A DNA stretch of 40,456 nt, from the NCBI GenBank assembly GCA_947478005.1, contig CANJVG010000016.1, forward strand, positions 1 to 40,456, in the 5' to 3' direction. The position numbers were made by a program, and so were the translations under genes. The notes under the pieces are model-generated. The model saw only the letters and a program-made list of their open reading frames with translations, ran no database searches and was not told the DNA's origin. Below are positions 13,078-33,545 of this stretch, piece after piece. Source of the DNA: Bacteroidota bacterium (GTDB taxonomy: Bacteria; Bacteroidota; Bacteroidia; Chitinophagales; LD1). Numbering within the stretch: the stretch's first letter is position 1; each line of letters starts with the position of its first letter.

Positions 13078-13716
13078 TTAATACTGTATCACAAAACTCA
13101 CCGCCAGGCTCCAGCCGCTTGTAACATTTTTAACCGTTGAACGGAAACGAAACACTATCCGCGCACCCGAGGTCAGTCCGCTCACGGTCGTGTTGGCCAC
13201 GTTTGTAACCGGCAGGTCGGTCCAGCTTACTCCGTTGTTGATGCTCATCTGCCATTGATAGGCCGCTTTGAGTGCTGCCGACTGCCCTACCAGTTTTACC
13301 ATACCTGGTGTAATCAACTGCTTCACCGCCAGGCTCGGCTTCACGCGCACCCCGTTTACTTTTATGTCCAGCCCCGATGAAGACGCAATAATCATCTGCT
13401 GCTCCGGGTCTGGCTCTACCCTTATCAATCCCTGCACATAGGCTACCCAGGTTTCCATATCATCGGTTACCAGCGTGCGGGCTGCGTTGCGCGTGGCCAC
13501 CCCGTTTTCGGCCCGCGTTTCTACCAATATCTGGGCAGCATCCATAGCCGAAATATGGCCGTTTACGGCCGAAACGGTAGGGCTGGGGGTTGCAAAAATG
13601 GTGGTGTAAGCTGCAATATCGGCCGACACATGGGTGGCTTTCATGCGGAAAGCGCCATAGCTGCGATATTTACTGATTCCAAATACGACTGTAATTTTTC
13701 TGTTTAAAGGAGCCAT
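13078..13716 (-). CDS. Small protein with FnIII-like C-terminal region
   Basis: 212-aa ORF. C-terminal 'AYQWQMSINNGVSWTDLPVTNVANTTVSGLTSGARIVFRFRSTVKNVTSGWS' resembles FnIII-type beta sandwich wording. No signal peptide. Confidence 0.75.
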   Translation of the reverse strand: MAPLNRKITVVFGISKYRSYGAFRMKATHVSADIAAYTTIFATPSPTVSAVNGHISAMDAAQILVETRAENGVATRNAARTLVTDDMETWVAYVQGLIRVEPDPEQQMIIASSSGLDIKVNGVRVKPSLAVKQLITPGMVKLVGQSAALKAAYQWQMSINNGVSWTDLPVTNVANTTVSGLTSGARIVFRFRSTVKNVTSGWSLAVSFVIQY

Positions 13717-13816
13717 TGTTTTATTTATTTAAAGGTTAAAAAATACATTGTAATGAAGCTCAAAGTCAACAGTTCGAAGCTTAGCAACCATTCGGAGTTC
13801 ATTTAAAGCGGCCCCA

Positions 13817-14110
13817 CAATCGCTTAATGAGCCGCCTCCATCATTCAGTGAAGCGCTTCAATGTCTTAGTGAGGTTCGTCACTCGATTAGTGAAGTCCTT
13901 CAATCGTATGGTGAGGTTCGTCATTCGATTAATGAGGTCCGTCAATCGTATGGTGTGGTTCGTCATTCGATTAGTGAAGTCCTTCAATCGTATGTCGAGG
14001 TTCGTCATTCGATTAGTGAAGTCCTTCAATCGTATGGTGTGGTTCGTCACTCGATTAGCGAGGTCCTTCAATCGTATGGCGAGGCTCGTCACTCGATTAG
14101 TGAGGTCCTT
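13817..14110. repeat. Tandem array B: 14 contiguous 21-bp units
   Basis: CAATCGTATGGTGAGGTTCGT / CATTCGATTAGTGAAGTCCTT and variants. Fourteen 21-bp units fill 294 bp exactly, with no spacers. Confidence 0.95.
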
Positions 14111-14446
14111 CACTTGCCCTTATTCTGCTGCTAAAACTTCAATGAACTTCGATGGTGCAAATCTACAGGCGGGCACAGCTCCGAACGAATTCTGAACCCT
14201 GTTTAAAACGCCCTAATAACCCCACGGCCCTGCCGAGCGATTTGGCATCGGTCGGGCAGGCTCTGACTGCCCTGTTTGCCTATGGCGCGGGGTCAAATAT
14301 TTTGGCCAGAATGTATTTGTAGAATCAAAAATATTTTGTACCGTTACATCACGTATTGGGGTTTTACGCCATTTGCGTGGCTAAAACAGGGGAAGGTGAT
14401 TTTCGAAACAAAGCACTTTTTTACGTATGGAACCACACAAAAAAAA

Positions 14447-14842
14447 ATGTATGACGAACGCAAAAAAAAGAAGCAGTCGCAAAAACAGGTTTACACCGCG
14501 CTGGGCTGGAAACAGCAAAACTACAGCAAAAAAGAACTGGGCCAGCGCAGGCTGAGCGAATACGAAGCCAGCCAACTGGCCCATTACCACGGCAAGCCCG
14601 AAGACTACTTTAAACACAACGGCCCTGCCGATGATGAACCCATAGCCGATGCCGGCACATCGCCTGCGGTGGCCGCAGCCCATATAACTAAGGAAGATTT
14701 AATCGCCTTTGGCGAGAAATTGGGCTCGGTGGTAGCCGAAAAAGTAATAGACACCCTGAAAAATACCTTGCTAAAAGAATTGAAAACCGAAACGCAGGAG
14801 AGAAAGAAACCGGAGAAGGAAAGGGGGAGGAAGAAGGGATAG
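14447..14842 (+). CDS. Small XRE/HTH-like DNA-binding-type protein
   Basis: MYDERKKKKQSQKQVYTALGWKQQNYSKKELGQRRLSEYEASQLAHYHGKPEDYF resembles a Cro/CI-type HTH. Basic C-terminal tail. ORF open from 14276; ATG 14447 preferred. Confidence 0.55.
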   Translation: MYDERKKKKQSQKQVYTALGWKQQNYSKKELGQRRLSEYEASQLAHYHGKPEDYFKHNGPADDEPIADAGTSPAVAAAHITKEDLIAFGEKLGSVVAEKVIDTLKNTLLKELKTETQERKKPEKERGRKKG

Positions 14843-14964: not shown

Positions 14965-15846
14965 ATGAGTGAAGCACAATATTTTAAAGGTTTTTGCGAC
15001 AAACTAGTTATTGGGACGGATAAACGGTCGACAATTTTAACACGATATAAGGCAATTACAACTAGACTAAACACTGACTTTTGGAATAGTCCAAGTGATA
15101 TACTATTTAGCAGATACGTAGGTTCGTATGGCAGAAATACATCAATAAAAAACGAAAGCGATATAGATATGATATTCGTTATTCCCGTGCATTTGAAAGC
15201 AACTTATGATAACTATACTTACAATGGACAGTCAGCTTTATTGCAAGCAGTAAGTAAATCAATACAAAAAACTTATAGCACATCAAAAGTAGGTGCGGAT
15301 GGGCAAGTTGTGTCTGTGACTTTTACAGATGGAGTGAATTTTGAAGTTGTGCCAGCTTTCGAGAATTCTGACAAATCATATACATTTCCAGATGCAAACA
15401 GTAGTGGCTCTTGGAGAAAAACAGACCCACATCCGGAGATAAATAAAATTAATGAAGAAGATCCGAAACTAAACTATAATTTAAAAAGTCTTTGTAAAAT
15501 GACAAGAGCTTGGAAAGGGTTTTGTTCCGTACCAATGGGCGGACTTCTTATCGACACATTAGCGTATAATTTCTTAAAAAGTTGGGCTCATAGAAATGAA
15601 AGCTATTTCTATTATGACTTAATGGCAAGAGACTTTTTTGAATTTCTTAAAAACCAAAATGAAGCACAAGCTTATTGGTATGCCTTGGGTAGTAATCAAC
15701 TAATTTATAGAAAAGGAAATTTTGAATATAAAGCTAAGTTAGCCTACAATAAAGCAGTTGAAGCCATACTGCTTCAAAAAGATAATAAGGAGTGGAGTGC
15801 AAAACAAAAATGGAGAGAAATATATGGATACGAATTCCCATCATAA
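14965..15846 (+). CDS. SMODS/CD-NTase-like nucleotidyltransferase (predicted second-messenger synthase)
   Basis: Pol-beta NTase core VGSYGRNTSIKNESDIDMIFVIP, then VSVTFTDGVNFEVVPAFEN and SGSWRKTDPHPEINKINEED, then a helical domain (LCKMTRAWKGFCSVPMGGLLIDTLAYNFL). Confidence 0.85.
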   Translation: MSEAQYFKGFCDKLVIGTDKRSTILTRYKAITTRLNTDFWNSPSDILFSRYVGSYGRNTSIKNESDIDMIFVIPVHLKATYDNYTYNGQSALLQAVSKSIQKTYSTSKVGADGQVVSVTFTDGVNFEVVPAFENSDKSYTFPDANSSGSWRKTDPHPEINKINEEDPKLNYNLKSLCKMTRAWKGFCSVPMGGLLIDTLAYNFLKSWAHRNESYFYYDLMARDFFEFLKNQNEAQAYWYALGSNQLIYRKGNFEYKAKLAYNKAVEAILLQKDNKEWSAKQKWREIYGYEFPS

Positions 15847-16393
15847 CGAATTTGAGCTATTAGAAGCTCAGCTGCGAGAAAACTATGGAAAAATAGTTTA
15901 CTCGCATAAAACTCAGGAAAAGTGTGCGGACATTTTAAATGAACGAAACAATTGCATTAAAAATATCCAAATTTTACTTTCTGGATTAATAACAACAGGA
16001 CTTTTAGTTCGTGTTTTCAAAGGTGAAGAATGGGCTTTAATTGTAAGTACAACTTTATCAGCAATTCAGTTCGCAATGGCAAGTTACCTAAAAGAGTATA
16101 ACTTGGGCGAGACTATTCAGAAACATTCTACTGCTGCATTGGAATTATTAGAAATTAGAGAAAAGTACTTGTCTTTGTTGACAGACCTTAAAGCAAAACT
16201 TATTAGTTTAGAGGATATAATTAAAAAAAGAGACGAATTACAGGACGAACTTTCAAAAACATACAAGGGATCACCAAGGACATTTAGTAAAGCGTATGCG
16301 AATGCCCAAAAAGCATTGAAAATTAATGAAGAATTGACATTTAGTGATGAAGAAATTGATAACTTTTTACCGACCCCATTAAGGAAGAAATAA
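15824..16393 (+). CDS. SLATT-like 2-TM effector protein (predicted)
   Basis: ATG 15824 lies inside the end of the NTase gene (23-bp overlap). Two adjacent hydrophobic helices (IQILLSGLITTGLLVRVF / WALIVSTTLSAIQFAMASYL) flanked by amphipathic helices, as in SMODS/SLOG-associating 2TM effectors. Confidence 0.8.
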   Translation: MDTNSHHNEFELLEAQLRENYGKIVYSHKTQEKCADILNERNNCIKNIQILLSGLITTGLLVRVFKGEEWALIVSTTLSAIQFAMASYLKEYNLGETIQKHSTAALELLEIREKYLSLLTDLKAKLISLEDIIKKRDELQDELSKTYKGSPRTFSKAYANAQKALKINEELTFSDEEIDNFLPTPLRKK

Positions 16394-31360: not shown

Positions 31361-31591
31361 AATTTGAAATGGTGATGAATCAACTCGGAACGACTACGTT
31401 ACAACTTAAACTGACTATAATCTAACTTAGAACTACTACGTTACAAGTTAGAATGACGGCAATCTAAGTTAGAACTACTACGTTCCAAGCTAGAATGACG
31501 ACATTCTAAGTTAGAATAAAGTAAATGTAACTTAGATTTATTTCGTTTTTGGTTCAAAAACCATTGTTTTTAAATAAAAATACTTCGTTTC
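31361..31591. repeat. Tandem array C: about 8 recognisable 21-bp units plus degenerate flanking units
   Basis: AAGTTAGAATGACGGCAATCT / AAGTTAGAACTACTACGTTCC and variants in exact 21-bp register from 31382 to 31549, with degenerate T-rich units on to about 31591. Confidence 0.9.
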
Positions 31592-31625: not shown

Positions 31626-33545
31626 ATGAATACAACCACCTTCTTCTTCGTTATCGCTTTGTTTCCTGCTTTTTGCATGGCCGAAGTTATTACCAAAGAA
31701 ACCGTCAAGGGTAAAGCCAAGGATTATTTTGACCGGGCCGACCATTTCTACGCTTTCGGTAAATTGCAGCAGGCCGATTCGCTTTTACACGAAGCGGTGA
31801 AGGACAAAGACAACTTCATCGATGCCTGGATTTTCATGGGGCAGATAAACCTCGAATACCTTAAGCATTATGAAGAAGCCAAAAAAGCCTATGAAAAGGT
31901 AAAACTGTTGCAGCCCACCTACCTCAGCGATGTGGATTTTCAATTGGCTAAATGCAATATGAACCTGGGCAATTATGAAGCCGCCAAAATCCTTTTGACT
32001 TCTTTTCTGAAGCAGGAAAGGCTGGTGGCGCATGAGCGGATTGAGGCCGAAATGATGTTGCCTCACTGCGATTTTGCTATCGAGGCTATCAAACACCCTG
32101 TGCCTTTCAAGCCTGTCAACCTGGGCCCTTCTGTTAACACGGCTGATGATGAGAGTATGCCTTCGCTCACTGCCGATGGCAAGTATCTTTATTTCACCCG
32201 CCATTTCGGTCAGGGCGCTTATCAGGATGAAGACATCTTTATGTCGCTGCACACCAGCGCGGGATATGCACCCGCCACCAGTGTGGGCAGCATGATAAAC
32301 ACCGAGCAGTTTATTGAAGGCGCGCAGAACATTTCGCCCAGCGGCAAGTATTTGTTTTTTACCTCTGCCGACCGTCCCGATGGGTTGGGAAGAGCCGATT
32401 TATATATGAGCCGCAAAACGGGTGACGAATGGGAGCGCCCCAACAATATGGGAGCGCCCATTAACTCGGGCGGCTATGAAACACAGCCCTGCATTAGTGC
32501 CGATGGCAAACAGTTGTTTTTCTCGGCAGTAAAGGCCCATGGAAAAGGCGGTTCCGATATTTGGGTGAGTTATCTTAATGGTGATGGCACCTGGGGGCAA
32601 CCCGAAAACCTGGGCGACAGTATCAACACGCCTTTTAATGAAATGCGCCCGTACATGCACCCCGATGGCAACACGATCTATTTCTCTTCAGACGGATGGC
32701 CTGGCATGGGCAATTACGACCTTTTTGTAAGCCACAAGAACGAGAATGGAATGTGGGGCACCCCAGTGAACATGGGTTACCCGCTCAACACGGCTGGTGA
32801 TGAACTCGGCATGTATGTGACAGCCGATGGCGCCCATGGCTATTTCGCCAGCGAGCAGAAAGATAGCAAGGGGCAAATGGATATTTACACTTTCGACATG
32901 CCCGATGACCTTCGCCCGAATTACACGAGCTATATAAAAGGAAACGTGTTTGATAACGATAGCCGCGAACCGATCCAATCCAATGTGCAGGTATATGATT
33001 TAGAAACGGGCAAACTTTTCACCAGTTTCAGCAGCGACAAAGCGAACGGTACTTTCCTTTCCACCCTGCCTTCGGGCAAAAACTATGCGGTGGAAGTAAT
33101 GAAGGATGGCTACCTGTTTTTCTCCAAGCATATTGCTATGAAAACAACCATCTCGCGCAATCCTTTTGAAGTGGATATTCCGCTCAAGAAGATAAAGGCA
33201 GGAGAGAAGGTAGTGTTGAACAATATCTTCTTCCCATCCGAAAAAGCCGAGTTGAAGAACGAATCGTTTTCAGAGCTGGGTATCATCACCAAGATGTTGG
33301 AGAAGAATCCTTCGATGAAGATTGAAATAGGAGGCCACACCGACAACACGGGCACCGAAGAGAAGAACCAAATGCTGTCTGAAAACCGCGCAAAAACGGT
33401 GTATGATTATCTGGTTAAAAAAGGAATTGCGGCTGACAGACTTACCTATAAAGGTTATGCGGCTACTAAACCTATCGATAACAATACTACACCTGAAGGC
33501 AAAGCCCGAAATAGAAGAACAGAGTTTGTGGTTATAGCGATTTGA
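31626..33545 (+). CDS. PorE-like OmpA-family protein (TPR, PD40 propeller, CRD-like, OmpA C-terminal domains)
   Basis: N-terminal TPRs; PD40-type repeats (MPSLTADGKYLYFTR, NISPSGKYLFFTSADR, QPCISADGKQLFFSA, RPYMHPDGNTIYFSSDG); IKGNVFDNDSREPIQSNVQVYDLETGK; OmpA EIGGHTDNTGTEEKNQMLSENRAKTVYDYLVKKGI. Confidence 0.9.
   Translation: MNTTTFFFVIALFPAFCMAEVITKETVKGKAKDYFDRADHFYAFGKLQQADSLLHEAVKDKDNFIDAWIFMGQINLEYLKHYEEAKKAYEKVKLLQPTYLSDVDFQLAKCNMNLGNYEAAKILLTSFLKQERLVAHERIEAEMMLPHCDFAIEAIKHPVPFKPVNLGPSVNTADDESMPSLTADGKYLYFTRHFGQGAYQDEDIFMSLHTSAGYAPATSVGSMINTEQFIEGAQNISPSGKYLFFTSADRPDGLGRADLYMSRKTGDEWERPNNMGAPINSGGYETQPCISADGKQLFFSAVKAHGKGGSDIWVSYLNGDGTWGQPENLGDSINTPFNEMRPYMHPDGNTIYFSSDGWPGMGNYDLFVSHKNENGMWGTPVNMGYPLNTAGDELGMYVTADGAHGYFASEQKDSKGQMDIYTFDMPDDLRPNYTSYIKGNVFDNDSREPIQSNVQVYDLETGKLFTSFSSDKANGTFLSTLPSGKNYAVEVMKDGYLFFSKHIAMKTTISRNPFEVDIPLKKIKAGEKVVLNNIFFPSEKAELKNESFSELGIITKMLEKNPSMKIEIGGHTDNTGTEEKNQMLSENRAKTVYDYLVKKGIAADRLTYKGYAATKPIDNNTTPEGKARNRRTEFVVIAI

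Follow-up and report, generated by a model that had tools for sequence, protein, structure and literature searches.

Why should the DNA between two divergently transcribed genes consist of fourteen copies of a 21-bp unit, and what could these copies do there? The array in question, array B, occupies positions 13817-14110 (without assigned strand) of a 40,456-nucleotide stretch of contig CANJVG010000016.1 from a Bacteroidota bacterium, and the window refers to this whole stretch. Array B has 14 ungapped 21-bp units organized as a 42-bp dimer of two unit types, A and B, and is unique in the genome. In the homogeneous core (13880-14110), 11 units (units 4-14) alternate strictly between a CACTCGATTAGTGAAGTCCTT type and a CAATCGTATGGTGAGGTTCGT type, whose consensus sequences are identical at 14/21 positions; each of these units agrees with the consensus of its type at 17-21 of 21 positions. 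The three units at the edge on the FnIII-gene side (units 1-3, 13817-13879) are degenerate and agree with whichever consensus fits better at 13-16 of 21 positions. The self-identity of the array is 0.84 at lag 42 and 0.63 at lag 21 but only 0.19-0.25 at neighbouring lags, and it never exceeds 0.38 in shuffles of the array (n = 2000; lags 10 to 89). Tandem Repeats Finder (TRF) gives the 42-bp period a score of 383. On the lag self-identity, the shuffles, and the unit layout, the 14 perfect-register units without spacers that a sequence-only reading had described are therefore real, and the two alternating types with 14/21 identity which it named are exact for array B, units 1-3 being degenerate. 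Array B is not a CRISPR array, as its units are contiguous without unique spacers.

The gene on one side of array B (13078-13716, minus strand) encodes a 212-aa protein of a family called F1 here. Its AlphaFold model (pLDDT 95) has an N-terminal four-helix bundle (residues 20-114) and a C-terminal FnIII fold (117-210), and the Foldseek matches of this model are FnIII domains only. Searches of Pfam and NCBIfam gave no match, and a signal peptide is not evident. The gap between the array and the start codon (13717-13816, minus strand) is 100 bp long, the distance that had been given as approximate, and is without the Bacteroidota -7 element (TAnnTTTG). On the other side, about 336 bp separate the array from the ATG of a small divergent gene (14447-14842, plus strand); the array thus lies upstream of this gene too, as had been read. 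The encoded DNA-binding protein, a candidate array binder, has an HTH_3 domain (Pfam, E=3.6e-5) and a basic C-terminal tail. Note that the start is placed at ATG 14447, and analyses using a start at 14429 carry six extra residues. A CBASS-like defence pair (14965-16393, plus strand) directly adjoins the HTH gene and consists of a SMODS CD-NTase (14965-15846) and a 2TM SLATT_4 effector (15758-16393), with strong PADLOC and Pfam matches.

The window has two more arrays, neither with an assigned strand. Array A (2096-2540; 21/42-bp period) is found in a convergent intergenic region. It is 70-73% identical to its reverse strand, and its units are therefore partly palindromic; at this convergent site an operator role would be without an obvious target gene. 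Array C (31388-31517) is located about 109 bp upstream of the gene at 31626-33545 (plus strand). It holds true that arrays A, B, and C have the same period class but different sequences, and each is found once in the genome.

Many arrays of this kind exist in each of several genomes. In a 440-kb sample of the home genome (G000), Tandem Repeats Finder reports many arrays with a period of 21, 42, or 63, sometimes 41. Relatives also have many arrays with 21-, 42-, or 63-bp periods, and their sequences are nearly all unrelated. When self-similarity of intergenic regions is tested at every lag from 12 to 69, 56 of the 63 self-repeats in ten genomes have a lag of 21, 42, or 63, give or take 1 bp, where 9/58 of the lags tested would be expected by chance; in the home genome the count is 22/22. 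The home genome has about 5 arrays per 100 kb, as does G428, which belongs to another family of the class, and G017 has 3. The density is near zero in the equally sampled G007 and G018. G007, which is of the same genus (244 kb sampled, without 21-bp arrays), has CRISPR-like arrays at L042:3668-7943 and L050:12547-15825. The genomes are mostly metagenome-assembled and repeat arrays are prone to misassembly, but an assembly artefact is unlikely because dozens of independent assemblies agree. A search of the arrays against Rfam yields only chance matches far below gathering, and no account of FnIII genes accompanied by 21-bp arrays was found in the open literature (most subscription journals being outside the scope).

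The position of these arrays is tied to two gene families. F1 is an uncharacterised, apparently signal-less family that many genomes of Bacteroidia encode, often with several members per genome. F2 is likewise uncharacterised and apparently signal-less, and combines a helical bundle with a CnaB/transthyretin-like fold. Foldseek matched only the FnIII or CnaB/transthyretin-like tails and gave no functional clue for either family. Class-wide, a strong self-repeat exists within 800 bp on the 5' side of 41/58 stand-alone F1 genes, and in 39/58 its lag is close to a multiple of 21 (within 1 bp, or lag 62); lags outside this class include 44, 66, and 16. About a third of F1 genes have no detected array at the sensitivity used. 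For full-length F2 genes, an array is found within 800 bp 5' in 23 of 27; F2 was first spotted beside arrays in G428, which makes a biased seed, but its members were then collected across the class whether or not an array was nearby. In the sampled contigs, an array lies 5' of 15/21 F1/F2 genes and of 53/1100 (~5%) other genes (Fisher P=5e-15). The array is on the 5' side at a distance of 60-400 bp from the F gene. Long multi-domain proteins that merely share the FnIII domain (L098-L103) have no array. The tie between array and FnIII-like gene noticed in the window is thus strongly supported: homologs throughout the class have a 21-bp array at this position, and its letters differ between them. 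Searches for F1 on plasmids or phages gave no match. A genome-contig search with the single window F1 protein found nothing, and one with alignment A2 found four loci in freshwater Bacteroidetes MAGs, at least three of them on already sampled contigs. Another family found near arrays (MAIPILNPY..., 229-247 aa; L051, L066, L151) has no Pfam or NCBIfam match, and the gene order F1 - array - MAIPILNPY... gene exists in G017 and G009.

The gene across the array often differs from locus to locus. The arrangement of F gene, array, and small DNA-binding gene is seen at about a third or fewer of the F-gene arrays, where partner detection is limited by 1.5-kb flanks and missing small-gene models. The partners found are of several folds: HTH_3 (the window), HTH_19/31 (L010), HTH_26 (L189, L191, and L194), GerE (L081, L127, and L128; weakly in L151), and LytTR (L011 and L118), with weaker HTH matches in L006 and L019. 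Small ORFs beyond the array have a DNA-binding domain in 11 of 44 cases compared with 2 of 41 controls (P=0.014), a moderate enrichment, and one of the two control ORFs with such a domain lies divergently next to an F1 gene. A 132-aa ORF beside the array of the G017 ortholog (L004:593-991), LytTR-like by eye, has no Pfam match and no alignment to L118, and is not counted. Two further proteins, L032:15100-15630 (176 aa) and L033:15470-15964 (164 aa), are 36% identical without a Pfam match, and each is separated by an array from another F-like gene in divergent orientation; they are possibly an unrecognised DNA-binding family. The HTH gene of the window is present in 1 of the 18 genomes of the genus, the home genome. 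Its product therefore cannot be a general array binder. F1 genes with arrays recur with other small DNA-binding genes in its place, and it is plausible that the window HTH protein is the local binder of array B. Regulators beside close F1 homologs differ in fold, as would be expected if regulator and array were exchanged together.

These observations are best accommodated, at a chance that we put a little below even, by reading array B as a same-face operator array in a three-part module of small DNA-binding gene, 21-bp array, and F-type gene. A step of 21 bp corresponds to two turns of B-DNA and would place all sites on the same side of the helix. The small protein would bind cooperatively along the ~300 bp of the array, and would thereby switch the F gene and, probably, the divergent gene that encodes it. 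Such switching may be threshold-like, set by the number of repeats and the amount of protein. As the regulator is exchanged in evolution (Cro-type HTH, GerE, LytTR), the repeat letters would turn over, while unequal exchange or slippage would keep units alike within an array and period and position would be retained. That the small protein binds the array, that it does so cooperatively, which way the regulation runs, and what the F protein does are inferred here.

The same-face reading is favoured because of the period, the F1/F2 association, the DNA-binding partners, folding that is neutral between strands, and an excess of dyad symmetry, which is above shuffles at P<0.05 in 25/70 arrays and at P<0.01 in 13/70 (array B, P=0.04). 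Several results weaken it. A partner is seen at a minority of loci and its enrichment is moderate. Many home-genome arrays have no F gene nearby, some of them at convergent sites without an obvious target. Dyad strength shows no correspondence to regulator class. The -7 element is found in 0/32 of the A-rich gaps between array and gene, the arrays are likewise without it, and so no promoter can be placed confidently; the third of F1 genes without an array counts against the reading as well.

The arrays may instead be DNA-shape elements, for which the period alone matters and which serve as curved spacers, insulators, or nucleoid-protein sites without a locus-specific binder. In a wedge model, the ratio of end-to-end to contour length is 0.82 for the arrays and 0.90 for non-periodic shuffles, and period 21 gives the most curvature among the periods tested. 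Arrays are found in intergenic regions of every type (divergent, co-directional, and convergent), and their sequence is unconstrained between loci, both as a shape element would have it. Real units, however, do not exceed shuffled units of equal period in curvature (mean percentile 0.50), and a selection of the unit sequence for curvature is not seen. A shape role still has a place because 21-bp repetition of any unit curves DNA in this model, but it leaves the dyad excess, the focus on F1/F2, and the DNA-binding neighbours unexplained. We consider this explanation rather unlikely.

A neutral or selfish minisatellite, spread by lineage-specific slippage or recombination in long intergenic regions where F genes merely happen to be located, seems improbable. 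Array sequences do turn over. In G017, the gene for the ortholog of the window F1 protein (64% identical) is preceded at 79 bp by a 301-bp array with a 42-bp period, and the sequence of that array is visibly different from array B. Two paralogous loci of G017 are 89% identical across the gene region but only ~74% in the array, and each array is internally uniform; this fast concerted evolution would suit a minisatellite. So would the array sequence that some unrelated loci have in common: in three of the four pairs of similar arrays in the home genome the similarity ends close to the array border, and in the fourth it extends ~125 bp beyond the array. Long intergenic regions are also where arrays abound, with 13 of the 28 home-genome regions of 500-799 bp containing one. 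A minisatellite of this kind does not account for how strongly the position of arrays is bound to F1/F2 starts throughout the class or for the absence of arrays from the equally sampled G007 and G018, and no known process sets the period at 21 regardless of sequence. Among arrays with common sequence are two of period 41 at unrelated loci of the home genome, L019:4936-5335, which adjoins a small HTH gene, and L034:13065-13297, which adjoins T9SS-tail proteins. These are possibly two targets of one regulator.

Quite improbable is a transcribed repeat RNA, either a 5' leader or an RNA array like those of type III toxin-antitoxin systems, acting on the F product. In type III toxin-antitoxin systems repeat arrays precede a protein gene, and here an array is found 60-400 bp before the gene, from which an A-rich gap without the -7 element separates it. 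The predicted folding of the arrays is indeed stronger than that of shuffles, but on both strands, and the z-scores of sense and antisense are equal (P=0.63). This symmetry therefore points to a feature of DNA rather than RNA, and an RNA leader structure is rejected for want of a sense-strand bias. The F1 fold, with its helical bundle and FnIII domain and FnIII matches only, and the arrays that lie downstream of genes or between convergent ones also speak against it. Finally, that the repeat encodes a heptad (7-codon) peptide is largely refuted and very improbable: 21 is divisible by 3, most arrays are open in several frames, and open frames are slightly in excess (3.65 vs 3.33 of 6), but these are mostly expected by chance, the array C consensus appears closed when read in all six frames, and unit differences are without a codon-position pattern (P<0.05 in 6/64 arrays, median P 0.58). 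The arrays are non-coding.

The operator-array reading may extend beyond the window. The 21-bp spacing and the position before certain gene families suggest a landing strip for an often-changing DNA-binding protein. It is possible, but more doubtful than the reading of array B itself, that exchangeable cartridges exist across the Bacteroidia, each made of a small DNA-binding gene of one of several folds and its own 21-bp array before a gene of the large helical-bundle/beta-sandwich families, with many arrays per genome that have only geometry in common. A regulatory element is usually found through its conserved sequence, whereas here geometry (21 bp) and position are kept and sequence is free. 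Searches for motifs would therefore overlook this class entirely. If the small neighbours bind their own arrays, there would be many natural pairs of protein and operator array, from which rules of specificity and the evolution of regulator exchange could be learned. F1 and F2, some with at least ten members per genome and the tested members without an NCBIfam model, would gain a first functional handle, if this is true.

Among known systems, the type III toxin-antitoxin loci (ToxIN-like) are similar in having a tandem repeat array 5' of a protein gene. They differ from the loci described here, which have no sense-strand bias in RNA structure and no nuclease-like fold found. This identity is rejected, as no ToxN/AbiQ-like ribonuclease is encoded downstream; the F1 model of the window is a helical bundle with FnIII, and Foldseek gives FnIII only. 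The tandem repeats of archaeal Borgs have unit sequences that are almost all unique to a locus, fast evolving, and intergenic, as here. Their unit length varies and their copies are perfect (PMC9879509), whereas here the period is ~21 and the copies are imperfect. BrickBuilt, a minisatellite/MITE of Porphyromonas gingivalis, also has intergenic, spacerless tandem repeats in Bacteroidota, with a unit of 23 nt or approximately two turns, but it is one sequence in 19 genomic copies with leader and tail ends (PMC4596501). The arrays described here differ in sequence at almost every locus and have a fixed gene association. A BrickBuilt-like MITE/minisatellite is rejected, as arrays A, B, and C each exist once in the genome and most sampled arrays are unrelated.

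The closest comparisons for an operator array are found in two regulators. BldC of Streptomyces, a small DNA-binding protein, binds direct repeats of varying number as cooperative multimers (PMC5859096). Its repeat is ~9-10 bp with one genome-wide consensus, whereas here it is 21 bp and specific to the locus. At the fha and ptx promoters of Bordetella, several dimers of the GerE-family protein BvgA occupy a single face of the DNA at intervals of 22 bp, or two helical turns, upstream of the regulated gene (PMC7250471). BvgA uses six weak, barely similar sites and is one global regulator (PMC7250471), while the arrays here have up to 14 near-identical units, locus-specific sequence, and candidate regulators of varying fold. 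BvgA and BldC provide precedents for the physics of the proposed operator array.
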